Counted from the stretch's first letter, positions 17,960 through 29,000 are shown. The stretch: 64,000 nt of DNA from Capnocytophaga cynodegmi DSM 19736 (GCF_000379185.1 NZ_KB900704.1:147118-211117), one strand, 5' to 3'. A program made the numbers and translations. The notes: generated by a model from the letters alone, not told the origin.

Positions 17960-18005
17960 CAAAAGTATAAAAAACACATCGAAGATAAAAAGATTTTCTT
18001 ATCTT
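17960..18005 (-). promoter_or_regulatory. nos operon promoter with upstream dyad
   Basis: Minus-strand -7 box TACTTTTG (17967-17960), but no TTTG at the usual -33 place. A dyad lies there instead: AAGATAA (17982-17988) and TTATCTT (17999-18005), centred about 40 bases upstream of the expected start, the usual position of a class II activator such as Crp/Fnr. Anaerobic or N-oxide control is plausible but not shown. Confidence 0.5.
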
Positions 18006-18110
18006 TTTTTAAGAAAGTTTAATATCTAAAAGAAGAATATATGTTAATTATCTGTTTATTAGAGCTTACGAACGTTTCTTTTGATTGTTTTGAACGGAAC
18101 CTCCTCACTA

Positions 18111-18141
18111 TTTGCCAATTTGTAAATAGTTCGTACCTTTG
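18111..18141 (+). promoter_or_regulatory. Strong-looking promoter without an annotated gene
   Basis: TTTG (18111-18114), 19 bases, TACCTTTG (18134-18141) is an ideal Bacteroidota promoter. The first thing downstream is a 16-codon ORF (18177-18227); the next full gene begins 250 bases on and has its own promoter. Confidence 0.65.
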
Positions 18142-18176
18142 CAACATTGAGTTACAACGCAAAACAAATAAAATCA

Positions 18177-18227
18177 ATGAAATTGGCTCCGTTACTAAAT
18201 CGTTACCTCATAGACTTTGAGAAATAA
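18177..18227 (+). CDS. Possible 16-residue leader peptide
   Basis: The ORF reads MKLAPLLNRYLIDFEK and then stops. It begins about 30 bases after the expected start of the 18111-18141 promoter, with an A-rich stretch before the ATG. A second mini-ORF (MKLVGFLIEK) follows at 18253-18285. No domain can be assigned. It could be a leader peptide, a tiny protein, or chance coding inside a small RNA. Confidence 0.35.
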   Translation: MKLAPLLNRYLIDFEK

Positions 18228-18343
18228 ACAACCACCTAAAAATGAACCTGTTATGAAATTAGTTGGATTTTTAATTGAAAAATAAAAAATATTAACAGAT
18301 TTTGAAAAAATAGTTTTTTTTCGAGACAAATATAAGCTCTTTT

Positions 18344-18374
18344 TTTGCTATTTTTGAAAATAAAACTACCTTTG
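18344..18374 (+). promoter_or_regulatory. Promoter of the LLM oxidoreductase gene
   Basis: TTTG (18344-18347), 19 bases, TACCTTTG (18367-18374); the ATG is about 20 bases downstream. Confidence 0.65.
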
Positions 18375-18394
18375 CATACGTAAAAAGCAATGCT

Positions 18395-19318
18395 ATGTTA
18401 GATGCCTATAACCTATCCATCGGGCTACTTCTTCCTATAGAGGCTTACGAGGGAAGCGTTCCAAAAATGGAAAATCAGATACATTTGATACAACTGGCTG
18501 AATCTTATGGTTTTGATACCATTTGGGTGCGTGATATTCCCCTAAAAGACCCTGATTTTAGAGATGTAGGACAGATTTTTGACCCTTGGGTATATCTTTC
18601 GCACATAGCATCTCTCACAAAAACCATCAAAATAGGAATAGCCAGTTTGGTATTGCCTTTACGTCACCCTCTTCACGTTGCGAAAGCTTCGGCAAGTTTG
18701 GACGTACTTTTTCCGAATCGCTTTCATATGGGAGTAGCTTCAGGCGACCGTCCAATAGAGTATCCTGCTTTCAATCAGCCTTTTGGATTGAGGAGTACCC
18801 GAGTATTTGAACATATGAAAATGCTTAGAAATATTTGGTCAAAAGAATTTCCTCACTATGACAATGATTATGGCATTCTTATGAACAAATCGGGCGATGT
18901 GATTCCAAAACCACTAAAGGGGAATATTCCTATGTACGTTACAGGGCATATTGGCGGAGTTAACTTGGAATGGATTTCAAAAAATTCTGATGGATGGATT
19001 TATTATCCTCGTGACTTTGCCCTCACAAAAAAAGTTGTTAAAAATTGGATAGAAACATTAGAGCAGGGAGGGGAAGCTCGAAAACCTTACATTCAACCCA
19101 TATACATTGACCTTATGGAAGACCCAAACTTTAAACCTGTAAATATTGATTTGGGATTTCGCTTAGGAAGAAACTATTTAATTGATATGTTCTTAACTTT
19201 GAGAAAGATAGGTGTTAATCATATAATACTAGTCTTGAAGCATAGTTCACGTCCAGTTGATGTTATTTTGAATGAAATTGGAAGAGAAGTACTTCCTCAA
19301 TTAAGAAGAGCTTTTTAA
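18395..19318 (+). CDS. LLM-class flavin-dependent oxidoreductase
   Basis: 307-residue luciferase-like monooxygenase fold (TIM barrel binding FMN or F420). Typical stretches are the N-terminal IGLLLPIE, AESYGFDTIWVRDIP and the HPLHVAKASASLD segment followed by RFHMGVASGDRP. The reaction cannot be predicted within this family. It lies 33 bases upstream of oxyR on the same strand, so cotranscription and a link to oxidative stress are possible. Confidence 0.88.
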   Translation: MLDAYNLSIGLLLPIEAYEGSVPKMENQIHLIQLAESYGFDTIWVRDIPLKDPDFRDVGQIFDPWVYLSHIASLTKTIKIGIASLVLPLRHPLHVAKASASLDVLFPNRFHMGVASGDRPIEYPAFNQPFGLRSTRVFEHMKMLRNIWSKEFPHYDNDYGILMNKSGDVIPKPLKGNIPMYVTGHIGGVNLEWISKNSDGWIYYPRDFALTKKVVKNWIETLEQGGEARKPYIQPIYIDLMEDPNFKPVNIDLGFRLGRNYLIDMFLTLRKIGVNHIILVLKHSSRPVDVILNEIGREVLPQLRRAF

Positions 19319-19351
19319 AAAATAAAAATTTTCTAACTTAAATAAAAAACT

Positions 19352-20293
19352 ATGACTATTACCCAATTTCAGTACGTTTTAGCCGTTGCAAAATATAAGA
19401 ATTTTACCACCGCAGCCGAAAATAGTTTTGTTACCCAACCTACTTTAAGTATGCAAATTCAAAAATTGGAGGAAGAATTGGGAGTAATCATTTTCGACAG
19501 AAGTAAAAAACCATTACAAATTACTGAAATTGGAGAACAAATCATTAAGCAAGCTCAAGTCATTGTTAATGAATCGGATAGAATGAACGATATTGTCGCT
19601 CAACAAAAGGGAATCGTTGGAGGAGAATTTCGTATGGGAATTATTTCCACAGTTTCTCCTACATTATTACCTATGTTTTTGGCTAATTTTATTCATAAAT
19701 ACCCAAAAGTTTCTTTAAAAATAGAAGAACAAAATACTGAAAATATCTTACAAAAGATTGAAGAAGGCTCTTATGATGCAGCTATTTTAGCAACTCCTCT
19801 AAATCACCCAAATATTATTGAGAAACCACTTTATTATGAGCCTTTTGTAGCATATATTCCTGATAATCACAGGCTACAAGCCAATAAAACCATCTATTCA
19901 GAAGACTTGGATATAAACGATATTCTAATGTTAGAAGACGGACATTGTTTCAAAGAAAGCGTTTTAAACATTTGTAATCAAGATATTATTGAATCAAAAA
20001 AGTATTTCCAACTAAAAAGTGGAAGTTTTGAAACACTAATCCGATTAGCAAATGAAGGCTTAGGAATGACCCTAATTCCGTACCTGCATTCTTTGGAGTT
20101 GAAAGAAAGCGAAAAAAAACATATACACCTCTTCGCCGAGCCATATCCCGCACGAGAAATCAGCTTAATTTATCATAAAAATGAATTAAAACTACAAACT
20201 GTAAAAGCTTTATATGAAGTAATTTCAGGTGTTATTCGTGGTGCAATTGCTTTTCAGAACGTGAAAATTATCAGTCCCACCCGACGAAAATAG
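19352..20293 (+). CDS. oxyR: OxyR, LysR-type hydrogen peroxide sensor
   Basis: N-terminal winged HTH (1-60, TTAAENSFVTQPTLSMQIQK) and a LysR substrate domain. The redox pair is present at Cys199 and Cys208 in LEDGHCFKESVLNIC, the same residues as in E. coli OxyR. Peroxide oxidises them to a disulfide that switches the activator. 313 residues is normal. It follows the LLM gene closely, perhaps in one transcript. Confidence 0.94.
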   Translation: MTITQFQYVLAVAKYKNFTTAAENSFVTQPTLSMQIQKLEEELGVIIFDRSKKPLQITEIGEQIIKQAQVIVNESDRMNDIVAQQKGIVGGEFRMGIISTVSPTLLPMFLANFIHKYPKVSLKIEEQNTENILQKIEEGSYDAAILATPLNHPNIIEKPLYYEPFVAYIPDNHRLQANKTIYSEDLDINDILMLEDGHCFKESVLNICNQDIIESKKYFQLKSGSFETLIRLANEGLGMTLIPYLHSLELKESEKKHIHLFAEPYPAREISLIYHKNELKLQTVKALYEVISGVIRGAIAFQNVKIISPTRRK

Positions 20294-20386
20294 CAAAGTT
20301 TCTTAGCTTTAATTTGCTCTTCTTTTTTATACTTTTAAAGAAGAATTTATTTGTAAAAATTTTATTTTTAAGATATTTGATTAAAG

Positions 20387-20424
20387 CCTGTCTAAACTTT
20401 TACTTTTCTAAAAGTTTAAACAGG
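20387..20424 (+). terminator. Hairpin after oxyR
   Basis: Arms CCTGTCTAAACTTTT (20387-20401) and AAAAGTTTAAACAGG (20410-20424), with one mismatch. No good T-run follows. The rest of this 318-base gap holds only the operator/promoter of the next gene. Confidence 0.55.
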
Positions 20425-20552
20425 TTAGCTGTTCTATTCCTCCTACCAAAATTTTAACAATTAAGGAAATATTAATAAGTCAACCGTTCGTACTTGAAAC
20501 AGAATTTTCGGTCGTGAAATTTATGTATCACTTTCATTTAAAAAAAAACGCC

Positions 20553-20588
20553 TGTGCTGTAATTTCGCATATATAAAAACTATTTTTG
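20553..20588 (+). promoter_or_regulatory. WYL-regulon operator 1 and promoter
   Basis: TGTGCTGTAATTTCGCATA (20553-20571), 9 bases, then TATTTTTG (20581-20588). It matches 14 of 19 positions of operator 2, with the same spacing to the -7 box. It drives the first YD-repeat-like gene. Confidence 0.6.
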
Positions 20589-20611
20589 ACCCCAAGATAC
20601 AAGATTGAAAT

Positions 20612-21757
20612 ATGAATAACGTTAAAAAGAAAATCCGAAAAATCTATTTTCTAAACGGTAACACCACCGAAATTACCTATCAAAAACCCAAAAGAATAAT
20701 CACAGAAGAATACGACCTGCACGGAAACATCACCCTGCACCGTATTGAAGAAGTCATCGACGGAAAGTTCGTTGTCTCTCCAAAAAGCAAAATTTTTGAA
20801 AATCAGTACAATATATGGAACAAATTATCCAATGTGAAAGTTTTTCAAAATCAAAAAATGATACGACAAGAATCTTTTTTCTATCATCATTTTAGCCAAA
20901 AGTATATTTCCATCATTTCAGAAGACAACCGTATAGAAAAAGAAGTTTACTGCGGTTCCGGAAAAATTATCCGAAAAGAATCCTATACTTTGGGAGAAAC
21001 AAATGAAGCTAAAATAGTCGAGTATAAATACGATGAGTTACACGATACAATAATAGCTATTGAGTACTCTAATAATGGAAATTTAATTGGTTATGAAAAC
21101 TTTGAGTATGATGACAACAAAAAACTTATTTCATGGAAAAAAGAATATCGTTCTGCCGAAGATATTACAAAAGAGTTTGCTTATTACGAACAAGGGCAAA
21201 AAATAATGCACAAAATAGAGTGTTTGGACAAGGAAAATCACACTCTCTATAAAAAGAGTTTTCACTACTTTAAAAGAGAAGAAAATATTATGGAATGCGT
21301 TGAATATGACGACGGAGAAGTGACAAAATATGAACGTACCAAAAAGAAAAAAGGAAAAAAAGAAATTAAAAACCGAACCGTTTATATGTGCGTTTCGGAT
21401 AACGATGATACAAACGAATTTTTCTATTTTTTAGAAAACGTTGACTATGAAAATGGAGTTGTAGTTAGACAATGTACTCAAAAATTCGATACTGAAAACC
21501 GCCTTATAGAACGCAAAATTACTGAGCAAAACGGAGATTACTACTTGAAAACCTATCAATACAATAACCCCAGCGGAAATCCGTCGGAACGTAAAAGAGC
21601 CACCTACAATTCAGACGAACAAATAATTAGCACCGAAATGATTGAAAAATATCTGGAAACCTACGATGATACAGGAAACTTGATTAAAAAAACGCATATT
21701 AAAACCGATGGCATCACCACTTCTATTGAAGAAGAACATATCCAATATTATCCGTAG
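20612..21757 (+). CDS. YD-repeat-like protein, paralogue 1, function unknown
   Basis: 381 residues, no signal peptide, strongly charged and rich in Tyr, Lys and Glu. The chain is built of short beta-like repeats in the style of RHS/YD proteins (EEYDLHGNITLH, VEYKYDE, FEYDDNKKLISWK, TYDDTGNLIKK). It resembles the product of 23803-24990 in repeat pattern and ends, so the two are paralogues. No toxin tip, transmembrane or secretion signal is visible, so it is probably cytoplasmic. It is controlled by the shared 19-bp operator. Confidence 0.75.
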   Translation: MNNVKKKIRKIYFLNGNTTEITYQKPKRIITEEYDLHGNITLHRIEEVIDGKFVVSPKSKIFENQYNIWNKLSNVKVFQNQKMIRQESFFYHHFSQKYISIISEDNRIEKEVYCGSGKIIRKESYTLGETNEAKIVEYKYDELHDTIIAIEYSNNGNLIGYENFEYDDNKKLISWKKEYRSAEDITKEFAYYEQGQKIMHKIECLDKENHTLYKKSFHYFKREENIMECVEYDDGEVTKYERTKKKKGKKEIKNRTVYMCVSDNDDTNEFFYFLENVDYENGVVVRQCTQKFDTENRLIERKITEQNGDYYLKTYQYNNPSGNPSERKRATYNSDEQIISTEMIEKYLETYDDTGNLIKKTHIKTDGITTSIEEEHIQYYP

Positions 21758-21951
21758 GAATTGTAATTTTGTTCCACAATCTACATATTTTTTTAACATA
21801 TCTTTAATATTTCTACTATTTTTTATATTTTAGTCCCATAAAATTATTTTTTTACCTATTTTGATTTGAGGTTTACTAGAATCCAACCAAATGGATAGAG
21901 TAAAACAAGAGCTGTATTTTTTATTTCCAAAAATTCAAAAAGAAATAAATC

Positions 21952-21987
21952 TATGCCGTGATTTAGCATAGCCACAATTTAATTTTG
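21952..21987 (+). promoter_or_regulatory. WYL-regulon operator 2 and promoter
   Basis: TATGCCGTGATTTAGCATA (21952-21970; TATGC and GCATA are inverted), 9 bases, TAATTTTG (21980-21987). The operator covers the -33 position. Confidence 0.75.
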
Positions 21988-22023
21988 TACCGAAAAACAA
22001 TAATAATTTATAACATATAAAAT

Positions 22024-23070
22024 ATGAAAGTTTACGCACATTTTTTTATTGAAAAAGGAGAAAAAGAAGTTCAATATCGTTGGAGAACACTATTGCAATT
22101 CGGTGATTCTTGGGAAGTTATCGGGTCGGTGGTGATGAAAAACCCAGGTAGTGCCAAATCAAAGTTAGTAGTTAGCGATGAGAAAATCCTTGAGCAACTA
22201 AATAAATTTGACGCCTCCGAAAAATGGCACGAATTTACGGCAGATAACACGATGCAAAACATTGAAAAATTGTTTAGAGAATATTCAAAGTTTAACAATT
22301 CTGATTTTAAAGGTGTTATCCAAGTTTTTAATCTGTTTAACGTTATAGAAGCCGATTTAGGTAAAGCCTTAAAAATTGCTCAAAATGTTAAAAATCGGCT
22401 GTTTTACCAAACTACTGATGTCGATTTGAACAACTTAAAAGCTCCTGTTTATTTAGGTTGGGGAGGTTTAGGAAACGATGAACAATTCAAACCCGTTGCC
22501 TTGAAATTCTTTGAAAAAACAAAGTCATTGAATATAAGTTATTTACATAATGAATTTGAAGTAAATAGTTTTTATCATCCGCTGTATTTGATAGGGAGAG
22601 GAAAATATAAACCAAAATCAATATACTTAAAATCTTGTTTTTTAGAGAATACAACGCAACCTAAAAATATGAAAGATTTTAATTTTCAGCCAAATATCAA
22701 TCCGCAAAATATTTTCAATCTATTGAAAGAAAATTTTAAGGATTCAACCATTTTGGAAGAAAATAAAACAACAATCCGCATTCCTTTTCCTGATGTTAGT
22801 AAATTACAACTAACTATAACACAGAGTGGTAAAGGAAGTATCGGTGTTCGTCATACGGATTTTAATCCAAAAGAAAACTATTCAAAAAAAGAATATTATG
22901 AGCAAGATAGTTTTTCAGAAATTTTGAGTGAGTTTGGATATACTTCAGCTGTTACTTGGCTTGGACAAAAGAATTTTAAGGATTTTGACGGTTTTTCGGA
23001 TGATGAAATCGCTGATGAAATCATCGCCGAAATAGAAAGTTTAAAAACTGATTTTGATAAGGTTAAGTAA
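22024..23070 (+). CDS. DUF1643-type protein with an extra C-terminal domain
   Basis: 348 residues. The first about 200 have DUF1643 features: VVMKNPGSA near residue 38, VFNLFNV, YLGWGGLGND and the closing FYHPLYL. The biochemical role of DUF1643 is unknown. The C-terminal part (about 220-348) is a separate unknown domain with an acidic end (DEIADEIIAEIES). It has its own operator-bearing promoter and is followed by a hairpin and then a metallophosphoesterase gene. Confidence 0.75.
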   Translation: MKVYAHFFIEKGEKEVQYRWRTLLQFGDSWEVIGSVVMKNPGSAKSKLVVSDEKILEQLNKFDASEKWHEFTADNTMQNIEKLFREYSKFNNSDFKGVIQVFNLFNVIEADLGKALKIAQNVKNRLFYQTTDVDLNNLKAPVYLGWGGLGNDEQFKPVALKFFEKTKSLNISYLHNEFEVNSFYHPLYLIGRGKYKPKSIYLKSCFLENTTQPKNMKDFNFQPNINPQNIFNLLKENFKDSTILEENKTTIRIPFPDVSKLQLTITQSGKGSIGVRHTDFNPKENYSKKEYYEQDSFSEILSEFGYTSAVTWLGQKNFKDFDGFSDDEIADEIIAEIESLKTDFDKVK

Positions 23071-23078
23071 CATAAATT

Positions 23079-23115
23079 AAAGGGCAGAAATTTTGGTTTT
23101 TCTGCCTTTATTTTT
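23079..23115 (+). terminator. Terminator after the DUF1643 gene
   Basis: AAAGGGCAGAAA pairs with TTTCTGCCTTT and runs into TTTTT. It lies just upstream of the next gene, so it may act as a partial terminator. Confidence 0.6.
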
Positions 23116-23131
23116 CTAAAAAAGAAACAAA

Positions 23132-23716
23132 ATGCTTTTTAACTATAAAAATCATAAAATATTTGCTTTTTCCGATACACACGGAATGCATCATAAGTTA
23201 GAAATTCCAGAAAACATCGATATTCTGATTTGTGCAGGAGATGGCATACAAGGATTTTCCGAAAATGAATTTCCGCATTTTTTAAGATGGTACGGCTCAA
23301 TTCCTGCCAAACTACGATTGTTTGTAGCCGGAAATCACGAAATTTTCTTCGACCGATATCCACAAAGGGCTAAAATTCTTATTCCCAAAAGTATTGTCTT
23401 ACTCGAAAATCAAGAAATGGATTTTGAGGGAATTCGTTTCTGCTCGGTAGTAGCACGTCCGTATCTGAAAAATGAGGTACAAATCTCTGAAAATGTAGAT
23501 TTTTTAATCACACACGCTCCCGTAAAAGGAATTTTAGATGATGATATTGGTTGTTCTAATTTGCGTAGACTCATTACTGAATCCACACCTAAGTATCACA
23601 TTTTCGGGCATATCCACAGCCAAGGATTACAACAATGGCAAAACGAAAAAACAACTTTTTGTAATGTTTCATATTTTAATCATCTGCAAAATTCTTATAC
23701 TCAATATTTAACATAA
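23132..23716 (+). CDS. Metallophosphoesterase (calcineurin-like)
   Basis: 194 residues with the full metal-binding set: SDTHG (Asp15, His17), CAGDG (Asp near 34), GNHE (near 67), THAP and GHIH. It is a short, single-domain cytoplasmic phosphoesterase of the 'predicted phosphohydrolase' type; the substrate may be a nucleotide, phosphoprotein or nucleic acid. It has no operator of its own and starts 61 bases after the DUF1643 gene, so it may depend on readthrough from that promoter. Confidence 0.9.
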   Translation: MLFNYKNHKIFAFSDTHGMHHKLEIPENIDILICAGDGIQGFSENEFPHFLRWYGSIPAKLRLFVAGNHEIFFDRYPQRAKILIPKSIVLLENQEMDFEGIRFCSVVARPYLKNEVQISENVDFLITHAPVKGILDDDIGCSNLRRLITESTPKYHIFGHIHSQGLQQWQNEKTTFCNVSYFNHLQNSYTQYLT

Positions 23717-23749
23717 AATGCATTTAAATTTTTTCAAAAATAATTTACA

Positions 23750-23785
23750 TATGCAGTGATTTAGCGTATCATAAGTTTAATTTTG
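23750..23785 (+). promoter_or_regulatory. WYL-regulon operator 3 and promoter
   Basis: TATGCAGTGATTTAGCGTA (23750-23768), 9 bases, TAATTTTG (23778-23785). Confidence 0.75.
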
Positions 23786-23802
23786 TTAAAAATGAAAATA
23801 AC

Positions 23803-24990
23803 ATGATGGCAAGTCAAGTAAAAAGAGAACTGAAAACTATTAGAGATGTTGAATATCCTATTGAATATAGAGGATTTAGAAAATTTGAAAAATTCGATGA
23901 AACACATCTTTGTACCTATGACATTCACGGAAATATCACCCAAATACTTAAAAAACAAACTTCAAAAGAAAATCCAAATAAGGTGCACACCGTTGTAAAT
24001 AAAATTTTTGAAAATATCTATGACAAAAACGATAATTTAGAAATGATCAATATTTTTGAATCCAACTCATTGTTTTCAAAAATATTTTTTTCTTATTTTC
24101 CAAATGGTACAATCTCCTCAATAACAAAATTAACAATGAATGGCGATGTAGAAAAAAGGTTCTACAATAAGCAAGGTAAAGAAATTGCTTCGAATTCCAT
24201 AAGTAGTAACTTAGATCCTTTAAATAATAGTGTTTCGTATAATTATTATAACAATCTGAATCAATTGGTATTAAATGTAGAATATTTTACATTTACCCAT
24301 GAAAACAAAATAGAGATATCAAAAACAAAATACGATTACGATTCAAATGGAAATATTGTCAAAAGCGTTTGCAAATCGGGTTCTTCAAAAGTCTATGAGA
24401 AGTTTTATTTTTATGACCTACAAGAGAACAAAAAAGAAGAGTTATTACAACAGGAGGCTCGGAAAGATACAGATTATTTAAAATCCACTACAAGAATATT
24501 TTACTTTATCGATAACAAAAAAAACACTACCGAAACATTTGAATTTGAAAGAAAAAAACTAATACGCAGATATTTATTTTTAAACATAACTAATGACCTC
24601 TTTTTTGACAGTCAGCACTATTTTTTGGAAATAACTGATAACTGCGGAAAAACACGTATCCATAAACGAAAATATGACAGTAAAAATCGAGTTATTTGGT
24701 ACAAAAAATCAAAACCTGATTACCAATTTTATTCTATCACGACGTATAAATATGACTCAAAAACCGATTTTTTACTTGAAGAAACTTTTAACAGCTACCA
24801 AAATAATGAAGTAGAAACTTCAAATACCACATTTTATGAGTATGAATTTGATAAAAATGGAAATATTACTAAAAAGAGTGACTTTACAATAAATCACCTT
24901 GTTGCTAATGCCGTTCCTTACAGAGTAAAGGTTACAGTGGAAAAGGAATATTACGACTCAAAAGCTAAAACCCCACCCCCATCTGCTTAA
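23803..24990 (+). CDS. YD-repeat-like protein, paralogue 2, function unknown
   Basis: 395 residues, no signal peptide or membrane segment. YD-like repeats include CTYDIHGNITQ, FSYFPNGTISS, YDYDSNGNIVK, YDSKNRVIWYK and YEFDKNGNITKK. It is a paralogue of 20612-21757 by repeat style, similar early motif (YD-HGNIT, then KIFEN-Y) and length. Function unknown. It is expressed from a promoter carrying the shared operator. Neither paralogue has the conserved core or C-terminal toxin of secreted RHS proteins. Confidence 0.75.
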   Translation: MMASQVKRELKTIRDVEYPIEYRGFRKFEKFDETHLCTYDIHGNITQILKKQTSKENPNKVHTVVNKIFENIYDKNDNLEMINIFESNSLFSKIFFSYFPNGTISSITKLTMNGDVEKRFYNKQGKEIASNSISSNLDPLNNSVSYNYYNNLNQLVLNVEYFTFTHENKIEISKTKYDYDSNGNIVKSVCKSGSSKVYEKFYFYDLQENKKEELLQQEARKDTDYLKSTTRIFYFIDNKKNTTETFEFERKKLIRRYLFLNITNDLFFDSQHYFLEITDNCGKTRIHKRKYDSKNRVIWYKKSKPDYQFYSITTYKYDSKTDFLLEETFNSYQNNEVETSNTTFYEYEFDKNGNITKKSDFTINHLVANAVPYRVKVTVEKEYYDSKAKTPPPSA

Positions 24991-25032
24991 AGAATCTATT
25001 TATTTTTTTATGAATTAGTATAAAAACAACCA

Positions 25033-25068
25033 CATGCCATGATTTAGCATACATTTAATTTATCTTTG
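25033..25068 (+). promoter_or_regulatory. WYL-regulon operator 4 and promoter
   Basis: CATGCCATGATTTAGCATA (25033-25051), 9 bases, TATCTTTG (25061-25068), immediately upstream of the WYL regulator gene, implying autoregulation. Confidence 0.75.
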
Positions 25069-25081
25069 TCAAAAAAGAAAT

Positions 25082-26011
25082 ATGAAACGAACAACAGCAA
25101 AAGAGAGTACCTCTCGTCTATTCAAGCGTTATATTTGGCTAATCGACTTAATCTCTAGAAAACAAGGAATTACCTACGAAGAAATCAATAATCGTTGGTT
25201 GCATTCTTCTCTTAACGAAGACGAAAAAGAATTTCCGTTGCGTACCTTTCACAATCACCGCGAAGCCATTGCTCAAATGTTTGATATTGATATTGAGTGC
25301 AACACCAAAAACGGCTACAAGTATTACATTTCCAACATTGCTGATATTAAACAAAATACACTTCAAAATTGGTTATTAAATTCCTTTACGGTCGGAAATT
25401 TATTGCAAGAGCAAAAAAACCTGCATCATCGTATCTCGCCCGAAAATGTGCCTTTAGGACGAGAATTTTTGGGACAAATCGTTGAAGCAATGAAAGAAAA
25501 TCTAAAATTGATTGTCCACTATCAAGGATTTTTACACGATTTTGCCACCGAAGCTCAAATACATCCATATTGCCTTAAAATTTTGAAACAACGCTGGTAT
25601 CTCATTGCTTTTAAAGAAGATAGCCACGCAATGCGGATTTACGCCCTCGACCGTATTAAAGATTTGAAAATCACAGATGAATCTTTTTCATTAGATAACG
25701 ATTTTGATGCCAAAGACTATTTTGAAAACAGTTTTGGTATTATCGTTGATGAATCTATTTCAGCCGAAAAAGTAACAATTAAGGTTGAAAAATCAAAATC
25801 TAATTTTTTGAAATCCCTCCCCTTACATCATTCTCAAAAAGAAATCAAAACGGAAGATGATTACACCTTTTTTGAATATTTTTTACGCCCAACGTATGAT
25901 TTTCGACAAGAAATTCTCTCTCACGGAGCTGAAATTGAAGTGATTTCACCCAATTGGTTTCGTGAGGAAATCAAAAAAATTGTAGCTGAAATGCATAAGT
26001 TTTACTCATAG
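25082..26011 (+). CDS. WYL-domain transcriptional regulator
   Basis: 309 residues. The N-terminal DNA-binding region (about 1-85) resembles a winged HTH (YEEINNRW, then FPLRTFHNHREAIAQMF). The WYL domain (about 140-225) has the signature QRWYLIAFKED followed by MRIYALDRIKDL, and a WCX-like C-terminal extension follows. WYL regulators respond to ligands, in several cases nucleic acids or nucleotides, and many control phage-defence genes. Four copies of one operator, including one before this gene, make it the likely regulator of the neighbouring genes. It may activate or repress; the operator lies on the -33 site. Confidence 0.88.
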   Translation: MKRTTAKESTSRLFKRYIWLIDLISRKQGITYEEINNRWLHSSLNEDEKEFPLRTFHNHREAIAQMFDIDIECNTKNGYKYYISNIADIKQNTLQNWLLNSFTVGNLLQEQKNLHHRISPENVPLGREFLGQIVEAMKENLKLIVHYQGFLHDFATEAQIHPYCLKILKQRWYLIAFKEDSHAMRIYALDRIKDLKITDESFSLDNDFDAKDYFENSFGIIVDESISAEKVTIKVEKSKSNFLKSLPLHHSQKEIKTEDDYTFFEYFLRPTYDFRQEILSHGAEIEVISPNWFREEIKKIVAEMHKFYS

Positions 26012-26059
26012 CCTATTTGTTAAAAAAATTGTATTTTTGCAATTCAGATTTTTACGATT

Positions 26060-29000
26060 ATGTACTTAATTTTCGATACCGAAACCACAGGTTTACCAAA
26101 ACGTTGGGACGCACCTATCACAGATTCAGATAATTGGCCTCGAGCTGTGCAAATTGCTTGGCAACTGCACGACCGTCACGGGAAGCTCATAGAGCATAAA
26201 GATTTTCTCATCACACCTGATGATTTTAACATTCCGTACGATGCTGAAAAAGTACACGGAATATCCACCGAATTAGCTCAACAACAAGGAATTTCAATTC
26301 AAAAAGTATTCGAAGAGTTTAATGAAGCTCTAAAAAAATCAACTTACGTGGTTGGGCAAAATATTGGCTTCGACATCAATATTATGGGAGCAGAATTTCA
26401 TCGCTATGGTGTTGATAGTCCGCTTGTTAATATGCCCGTTTTGGATACTTGTACCGAAATCACAGCAGAACTCTGCAAGATCCCTGGGGGACGTGGTGGT
26501 CGTTATAAATTACCTACACTCACTGAGTTACACAAATTTCTGTTCAATGTTCCTTTTGCAGAAGCGCATAATGCCACTGCCGACGTGGAAGCAACTACCC
26601 GTTGTTTCTTTGAATTGATACGCATCGGACAAGGATTTGAAACAAAAGATATTTCGGCTGAATACATTACTGAATTTCAACAATATAACCCAACCGAAAT
26701 TCAACCCATTGGGCTAAAACACATCAACCTGAAAGAGGCCTCGGAAGAAATTCGTAAAGAAATTCAAAAGCAATCAGGAAGCGGATTAAGTCAACAAGAG
26801 CTTGATGCAAATATCGCCTTGTTGGAAAAAGCTCCGTTTGCTCATTTGCACAATCACACACAATTCTCTGTATTACAAGCCACTACATCTATCCAAAATC
26901 TGGTTAAGAAAACCATTCAGGAGAAAATGCCTGCCGTAGCAATGACCGACAGCGGAAATATGATGGGGGCTTTTCATTTCATCAAGGAAGTTTTGGGGCA
27001 CAACAAATCCGCCAAAGCCAAAAATGATGAAGCTATCGAAAAGGGCGAAACTCCTTCCGAAATCGAAATTAAACCCATTGTCGGGTGCGAATTTAATGTC
27101 TGTGAAAATCATTTGGACAAAAGCCATCAAGACAATGGTTATCAAGTTGTTATGTTAGCCAAAAATAAAAATGGCTATCACAATTTGGCAAAAATGGCTT
27201 CCATTGCTTATACCGATGGTTATTATTACGTACCGAGAATTGACAGAAATATCGTTGAAAAATATAAAGAAAACCTCATCGTATTAACTGGTGGAATGAA
27301 TGGCGAAGTTCCGTCCAAAGTACTGAATATCGGAGAGAAACAAGCCGAAACAGCATTACTTTGGTGGAAAAATCTTTTCGGTGAAGACCTTTACATCGAA
27401 CTGATGCGACACAATCAAGAAGATGAAAACCGTGTCAATCAAGTACTTATAGAACTATCCAAAAAACATCAAGTAAAGCTCGTAGCCACGAATAACACAT
27501 TCTATATCAACCAGAAAGATGCCAACGCACACGATATTTTGCTATGTGTAAAGGACGGAGAAAAACAGGCAACTCCCATCGGAAGAGGTCGCGGATATCG
27601 CTTCGGAATGCCCAATCAGGAATATTATTACAAGTCCGCCGAGCAAATGAAAACTTTGTTTAAGGACGTTCCAGAAGCCATTTTAAATATTCAAGAAATC
27701 ATCGATAAAATTGAGATTTATAACTTAGCTCGAGAGGTTTTATTGCCAAAATTTCAAATTCCTGATGAATTTCTGGTAGAAGATGACCCTGACGGAAAAA
27801 AAGGAGAAAACAAATATCTCCGACATCTGACTTATCTCGGAGCAGAAAAACGTTACGAACTTCCTCTTTCTGAAGAAGTTATTGAACGATTGGATTTTGA
27901 ATTGATGATTATTGAAAAAACAGGATATCCTGGGTATTTCCTTATCGTTCAAGACTTTATCGCAGCAGCTCGTGAAATGGGCGTTTCCGTAGGTCCAGGA
28001 AGGGGGTCAGCGGCGGGTTCGGCAGTAGCTTATTGCCTCGGAATCACGAACATAGACCCAATCAAATACGACTTACTTTTTGAGCGTTTCCTCAACCCTG
28101 ACCGCGTAAATATGCCCGATATCGATATTGACTTTGATGATGAAGGACGCTCATTAGTAATGGATTACGTTATCAACAAGTACGGAAAAAATCAGGTGGC
28201 TCAAATCATCACTTACGGAACAATGGCGGCGAAATCTTCCATTCGGGATACCGCTCGTGTACTGGATTTACCTTTGCACGAGTCCGACAGAATTGCCAAA
28301 CTCGTGCCAAATATGAAATTGGCAAAGATTTTCAGTATGGACGACAAACAGCTGAAAGAAAAGCTACGTTCCGACGAACTTCCAAAAGTAAACGAACTCA
28401 AACAAATAGCCGAAGGTACGGATTTGGCTGCCGAAACGCTGCAACAAGCTCAAGTTCTGGAAGGTTCTGTTCGCAATACTGGAATTCACGCCTGTGGCGT
28501 TATTATCACTCCTGATGATATTACCAATTTCGTGCCTGTTTCAGTCGCCAAAGATTCGGATTTATTTGTTACTCAGTTTGATAACTCCGTTGTAGAAAGT
28601 GCTGGACTGCTAAAAATGGACTTTTTAGGGCTTAAAACACTCACCCTGATTAAAGATTCTGTCGAACTTATAAAAAGGCGGAATGGCATAGAAATCAATC
28701 CTGATGAAATTCCGATTGATGACAAAAAAACGTACGAGCTTTTCCAACGTGGTGAAACTGTGGGGATTTTCCAATACGAGTCGCCTGGAATGCAAAAATA
28801 TATGAGAGAACTTAAACCTACCGTTTTTGCTGATTTAATTGCGATGAACGCCCTATACAGACCAGGTCCCTTGGAGTACATTCCGAGTTTTATCAAACGC
28901 AAACACGGGACGGAACCCATTGTGTATGACCTTGATGCAATGGAAGAATACCTCAAAGAAACTTACGGAATTACGGTATATCAGGAGCAAGTAATGTTAC

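Follow-up and report, generated by a model that had tools for sequence, protein, structure and literature searches.

A candidate WYL-type activator regulon with a repeated operator-promoter cassette in Capnocytophaga cynodegmi and other Bacteroidota

Background

The described WYL regulators closest to the system presented here include both activators and repressors. DriD of Caulobacter crescentus, a protein with a helix-turn-helix (HTH) domain followed by WYL and WCX domains, is an activator of a non-SOS DNA-damage response, and its sites, pseudo-palindromes of about 20 bp, lie over the -35 region at a constant distance from the -10 element at several scattered promoters whose -35 elements are poor (PMC12340889). 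PafBC and SiwR of mycobacteria are likewise WYL proteins acting near the promoter core (PMC11804915, PMC10693628), PafBC being positioned between sigma and the -35 region, where it stands in for -35 recognition (PMC11804915). BrxR and CapW, WYL regulators of defence operons with palindromic operators of about 20 bp, are repressors with one or two sites per island; those of CapW overlap the -10 element and those of BrxR are downstream of it (PMC9122588, PMC9122601). How bacteria induce their defence genes is poorly understood. Here we analyze a 64,000-nucleotide stretch of Capnocytophaga cynodegmi DSM 19736 (GCF_000379185.1 NZ_KB900704.1:147118-211117; "the window", with positions counted from its first letter), in which four operator-promoter modules stand before a group of accessory genes and the gene of a WYL regulator.

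The locus differs from DriD in its Bacteroidota -7 box, in its operator sequence, in the exchangeable accessory genes (cargo) under its promoters and in having a site directly before the regulator's own gene. Unlike PafBC, a heterodimer that has a -26 motif and a regulon of DNA-repair genes, the locus has a single protein and a dyad, and the one or two sites per island of BrxR and CapW contrast with a cassette before each gene. The GmrSD/DUF262 type IV restriction systems and the PADLOC candidate families PDC-S10, PDC-S26 and PDC-S48 form part of the cargo of relatives, but the window locus has no GmrSD gene. That WYL regulators occur at defence islands is known; what we have not found described is a fixed, -33-replacing cassette on each exchangeable Bacteroidota cargo gene, and a literature search that covered few subscription journals found no WYL regulon described for the Bacteroidota. 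We consider it probable, with some reservation, that the locus is a WYL-type activator regulon, an inducible accessory defence or damage island with one cassette per gene.

Four operator-promoter modules in the window

Each module consists of a 19-bp dyad (consensus TRTGC-N5-TTTGGCAYA) followed after exactly 9 nucleotides (nt) by a TAnnTTTG box, and all four were found where the preliminary description had placed them, on the + strand: site 1, TGTGCTGTAATTTCGCATA (20553-20571), with the box TATTTTTG (20581-20588); site 2, TATGCCGTGATTTAGCATA (21952-21970), with TAATTTTG (21980-21987); site 3, TATGCAGTGATTTAGCGTA (23750-23768), again with TAATTTTG (23778-23785); and site 4, CATGCCATGATTTAGCATA (25033-25051), with TATCTTTG (25061-25068). 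The sites precede genes 1, 2, 4 and 5 of a five-gene locus, with 13-36 nt between box and start codon at all four promoters. Site 4 belongs to the putative autoregulatory promoter of the WYL gene, and its arrangement is also found before the WYL gene in three related loci (L015, L051 and L053; L and G numbers are our labels for loci and genomes). The modules had been called identical, which they are not: the sites differ, and site 1 is the most divergent. We take site 1 to be real because the orthologous promoter in G019 (L053:3846) has TATGCAGTTATTTCGCATA at the same place.

A search of the window at up to three mismatches gave three matches against a chance expectation of 0.02, and none of 100 shuffles reached three. 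No structured RNA was found in 18000-28000. The genome-wide tests were pattern searches with mismatches for the composite motif (operator, spacer and box). In the whole genome the four window sites were the only matches at up to one mismatch; up to three mismatches there were five, the four window sites (0-1 mismatch) and one elsewhere with three, and the reversed-motif control gave no match at that threshold. A string identical to a site-1-like sequence on contig C13 lies within a coding region and has no -7 box, and was dismissed.

Distribution of the module in the genus and in other Bacteroidota

Of the 20 genomes compared within the genus, only G000, G002, G016 and G019 have sites with up to one mismatch, and these are the four whose WYL protein shares at least 71% identity with that of the window; the other 16 have no composite match at that threshold. 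The exact composite pattern, in 299 genomes of the family, was found in this genome alone, the pattern being too strict for distant relatives and the carriers in the sample few. Relatives of the WYL protein are nevertheless common beyond the genus: in one other family of the class the regulator is carried by about half of the genomes sampled (117/251), often in several copies, and it is present in further families.

We inspected 48 WYL-linked loci from several Bacteroidota families with a mismatch search that allowed 7-11 nt between dyad and box, totals being counted from the match list. The module recurs around these loci, with 49 matches compared to 1, 1, 2 and 4 for four scrambled motifs; the spacing is 9 nt in 42 of the 49 and 10 nt in 6. 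After refinement on these sites, a matrix scan returned 96 matches, against 0-5 with the operator columns permuted, but since refinement favours the observed count the untrained mismatch search is the cleaner test. When the operator alone was searched and the spacing left free, 40 matches stood 9 nt from the box, 3 at 10 nt and 1 at 3 nt, with no other distance up to 40 nt. The module lies directly upstream of 20 of 45 WYL genes. Genome-wide searches in 30 genomes gave matches that exceed the reversed control manyfold, and by hand count a known WYL gene of the family is found no more than 10 kb from 36 of the 52 sites with up to one mismatch; the remaining 16 are satellite sites or pairs (for example on G818 contig 19, G1211 contig 13 and G743 contig 18).

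This distribution bears on the idea that the cassettes are recent duplicates of one promoter with no common regulator. The three best window copies are indeed 68-74% identical over 50 nt, downstream flank included. If such duplication were the explanation, only recent paralogues should be conserved, and this is not the case: across species only operator and box are conserved while the sequence of the 9-nt spacer varies freely, the cargo genes are unrelated, and the dyad is retained across WYL proteins that are only about 40% identical. We regard it as scarcely credible. That the operator and its regulon are real is close to certain.

The WYL protein as probable reader of the operator

The WYL regulator (25082-26011, +; 309 amino acids) has a WYL domain at residues 129-197 followed by a WCX domain at 228-304 (PF13280, 3e-15, and PF25583, 1e-9, both above the Pfam cut-off) and a putative N-terminal HTH. 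The Pfam search gave no HTH match; a low-confidence model (predicted local distance difference test score, pLDDT, 44, from a two-row alignment) places helices at 7-28, 32-41 and 51-66 together with a two-strand wing.

Of the neighbours of the sites, the WYL protein alone is constant, and the arms of the operator tend to vary with its HTH. Proteins with PLRTFHN helices, at most loci, go with TRTGC...GCAYA arms, those with PERTFHR helices with ACTGnC...GnCAGT arms (L125, L128) and those with PKRTF or AKRTF helices with TCTGCC arms (L133, L136, L139, L146). Over 36 loci, operator distance correlates with HTH distance (Mantel r=0.40, P=4e-4) and, slightly less, with the distance of the C-terminal part of the protein (r=0.32). 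This covariation is suggestive of binding by the WYL protein, which we consider the likely reader of the 19-bp sites.

The other candidate for that role is an alternative sigma factor or another regulator, with the WYL gene merely one of its targets. A -33 element recognized by the sigma factor itself would likewise explain why the -33 box is missing and why the distance to the -7 box is fixed, and 16 of the 52 sites noted above lie far from a known WYL gene of the family. The sites are dyads, however, which is atypical for sigma elements, and the covariation with the WYL HTH is not what this explanation leads one to expect. It had been recognized that a general sigma element should place the 19-mer at many unrelated promoters; instead, genomes without this WYL protein are nearly empty of the motif (none in the 16 of the genus and only 2 weak matches in six genomes of family f11). 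We therefore think a reader of this type very unlikely. The module is conserved from species to species and from family to family and occurs together with the WYL gene, which strongly supports the original proposal of a WYL regulon with an autoregulatory operator.

Activation or repression

The preliminary description noted that the site takes the place of the usual -33 TTTG, and this is borne out: a TTTG at a spacer of 17-23 nt, the usual Bacteroidota distance between the -33 and -7 elements, is present in at most 1 of 40 promoters. From this it had suggested that the promoters may need activation or be tightly repressed. That pair of options can be narrowed, and activation is favoured, because the operator-box distance is fixed and the -33 TTTG is missing; that distance is held even between distant lineages, as contact with RNA polymerase would require and steric hindrance would not. 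The promoters thus combine a poor or missing -35 (-33) element with a binding site over the -33 region at a fixed distance from the -7 box, a layout that is the published one of DriD and resembles that of PafBC, which argues for activation.

The alternative is a repressor of the BrxR/CapW type that occupies the -33 region, keeps RNA polymerase away and is released from the DNA by a signal made during infection. In its favour, those two regulators of defence operons are repressors, and the operator overlaps the promoter, with autoregulation typical of such proteins. The constant spacing could also stem from duplication of whole cassettes. The sites of BrxR and CapW lie on the -10 element or downstream of it, however, and neither is fixed over the -33 region, while the operator here stops 9-10 nt short of the -7 box, on the upstream side; the spacing of 9-10 nt is held in many families, and a model with repression only has no need of a missing -33 TTTG. 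In a profile search against solved structures the regulator is also closer to PafBC (1e-19) and to a second WYL set (1e-15), which we take to be DriD, than to CapW (2e-4) or BrxR (6e-3), a similarity that covers the WYL domain and alone says little on the sign of regulation. A repressor therefore seems rather unlikely to us, and activation the better supported of the two, with moderate confidence.

We propose recruitment of RNA polymerase by the WYL protein because the promoters lack the -33 TTTG. The protein, probably as a dimer, would bind the dyad at the -33 position, with 9 nt, or at times 10, between the dyad and the downstream -7 box, and RNA polymerase would use these promoters only when the signal-loaded protein holds it there, as with DriD and PafBC. 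In this way the WYL protein would activate its own gene and the adjacent genes, each through its own copy of the cassette. By analogy, the signal molecule may be single-stranded or otherwise damaged nucleic acid; for the signal and the function of the regulon our confidence is weak to moderate.

A similar layout was seen in a different Bacteroidota WYL family, whose WYL genes are immediately preceded by a dyad of their own, CGACA-N5-TGTCG, with TATATTTG 11 nt after it (boxes at L074:7194, +, and L077:8507, -, with L056 and L058 alike). This dyad is also near the -33 place, and a -33-replacing layout may be general for WYL regulators of the Bacteroidota.

Genes and cargo of the regulon

Five genes on the + strand fill the 5.8 kb between a LysR-type gene (ending at 20293) and dnaE (starting at 26060). 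The first encodes YD-like protein 1 (20612-21757; 381 amino acids; orthologue L053:3905-5047) and the fourth YD-like protein 2 (23803-24990; 395 amino acids). Their description as two paralogous YD-like proteins holds for the paralogy (24% identity, E=9e-12) and is weak for the YD/RHS label, as RHS_repeat falls just under the Pfam cut-off in protein 2 (E=4e-4; 21.2 compared to 22 bits) and has no match in protein 1. The second gene encodes a 348-amino-acid protein (22024-23070) that had been labelled DUF1643. The Pfam profile (PF07799) has no match to it at E<=1, and the label survives only as a DUF1643-like N-terminal part, for which BLAST gives a weak link (E=0.002) to a protein that does match the Pfam DUF1643 profile, encoded at the corresponding locus of G007 (L055); a structure prediction from a two-row alignment was unusable (pLDDT 33). 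Its C-terminal domain is 42% identical (E=8e-13) to that of L015:6170-7270, a protein with an N-terminal part similar to uracil-DNA glycosylases (PF03167, below cut-off at E=0.0012). To judge from these sequences, the N-terminal domain differs between the two proteins and the position in the locus is retained. The third gene, 23132-23716, encodes a calcineurin-like metallophosphoesterase (PF00149, 3e-9) matched by the PADLOC PDC-S10 profile over residues 6-187 (E=9.6e-47). Phosphoesterase genes at L015:7330-7940 and L055:3601-4200 are frameshifted or broken, with neighbours that look intact.

The preliminary description concerned a single locus. The regulator family proves to be widespread and its cargo exchangeable, so the gene set of the window is only one of many. 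Over the 48 loci the cargo includes the phosphoesterase (14 loci), GmrSD/DUF262 (12), an AAA protein of 550-700 amino acids (9), an FtsZ-like protein (5) and RtcB (3), with MBL nucleases, RNase T, SprT, DprA and PD-(D/E)XK at one or two loci each; GmrSD/DUF262 pairs and repeat proteins recur, and the L015 and L054 cargo has matches to the PADLOC candidates PDC-S26 and PDC-S48. In 30 genomes, 12 of 18 PDC-S10 genes lie within 10 kb of a WYL gene of the family, where by our own count and estimate far less than one is expected by position; for GmrSD genes the figure is about 16 of 57. The cargo profile appears to be that of a defence or nucleic-acid-repair island. Because the cargo is exchangeable and rich in defence and nucleic-acid families, we take an inducible accessory island for defence or the response to damage to be the most likely identity of the locus; an anti-phage or nucleic-acid-damage role of the accessory gene set is probable, and a defence or damage role of the regulon as a whole is plausible.

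Two RtcB RNA-ligase genes, L128:9500-11373 (adjoining the FtsZ-like protein) and L144:5535-6800, lie behind a WYL operator and are possible RNA-repair cargo.

Several observations weigh against the account given here. The suggestion of an inducible defence or stress system is backed by the GmrSD, PDC-S10, RtcB and AAA genes of relatives, but the window's own cargo (two paralogous YD-like proteins, the phosphoesterase and the 348-amino-acid protein) is not proven to act in defence; PDC-S10, too, is no more than a candidate family, for which a literature search found no paper, nor any tested function for PDC families. Relatives of the PDC-S10 phosphoesterase (28-45% identity) are encoded on 24 IMG/VR viral contigs (L083-L106), so many that its presence alone is weak evidence of defence; no relative of the WYL protein or of the 348-amino-acid protein was found on the viral contigs searched. 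A tally of 76 neighbour proteins, with GmrSD_N in 10, AAA in 5 and also RtcB, RNase T, MBL and SprT, was partly assembled by hand and includes two operons (L073, L076) already known for DUF262. As for the regulator, a site immediately upstream is lacking for 25 of the 45 WYL genes, some of which lie within site-headed operons and others of which have none visible, and when near relatives are removed (n=18) the covariation of operator and HTH keeps its trend and is not significant (r=0.25, P=0.08).

Beyond the window, we consider it nearly as likely as not that the Bacteroidota possess a widespread, horizontally moving counterpart of a damage response, a family of WYL activators with a single type of operator-promoter cassette that tags every cargo gene individually. 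If true, newly acquired defence or repair genes, even in satellite clusters far from the regulator, would join a single inducible regulon. A gene behind TRTGC-N5-TTTGGCAYA-N9-TAnnTTTG is a candidate member, and this one motif would predict the regulon and how it probably works, along with further candidate defence genes throughout the phylum.

The locus as an accessory insertion

In G005 the LysR and dnaE genes are 155 nt apart, compared to 5.8 kb in the window genome, and the alignment of the flanks runs to the end of LysR and resumes at the start codon of dnaE. As the two genes are adjacent there, the LysR-dnaE locus is an accessory insertion. G019 has at the same LysR-dnaE position a locus with five operator modules and different gene content, while G016 (and its twin L015) and G002 carry the module and WYL gene at other chromosomal places. 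Among named genomes the best locus is that of a Capnocytophaga metagenome-assembled genome, with a WYL protein 71% identical; G016 has the promoter sequences of that assembly.

The G019 locus ends in a second WYL gene (L053:13981-14871, 54% identical) with no matching operator upstream. A sixth, perfect module lies 336 kb off in this genome (L054:8369, -, towards 5163), near an 851-amino-acid protein with a weak PADLOC PDC-S48 match, possibly a remote member of the regulon. In G002 a remnant of this WYL gene, its final 62 codons, remains near dnaE (L052:6716-6901, -; 89% identical), and a full copy, 94% identical, lies 155 kb away and adjoins a short transposase-like open reading frame (L051:7766-8038); the locus in that genome has moved, or was duplicated and then lost.

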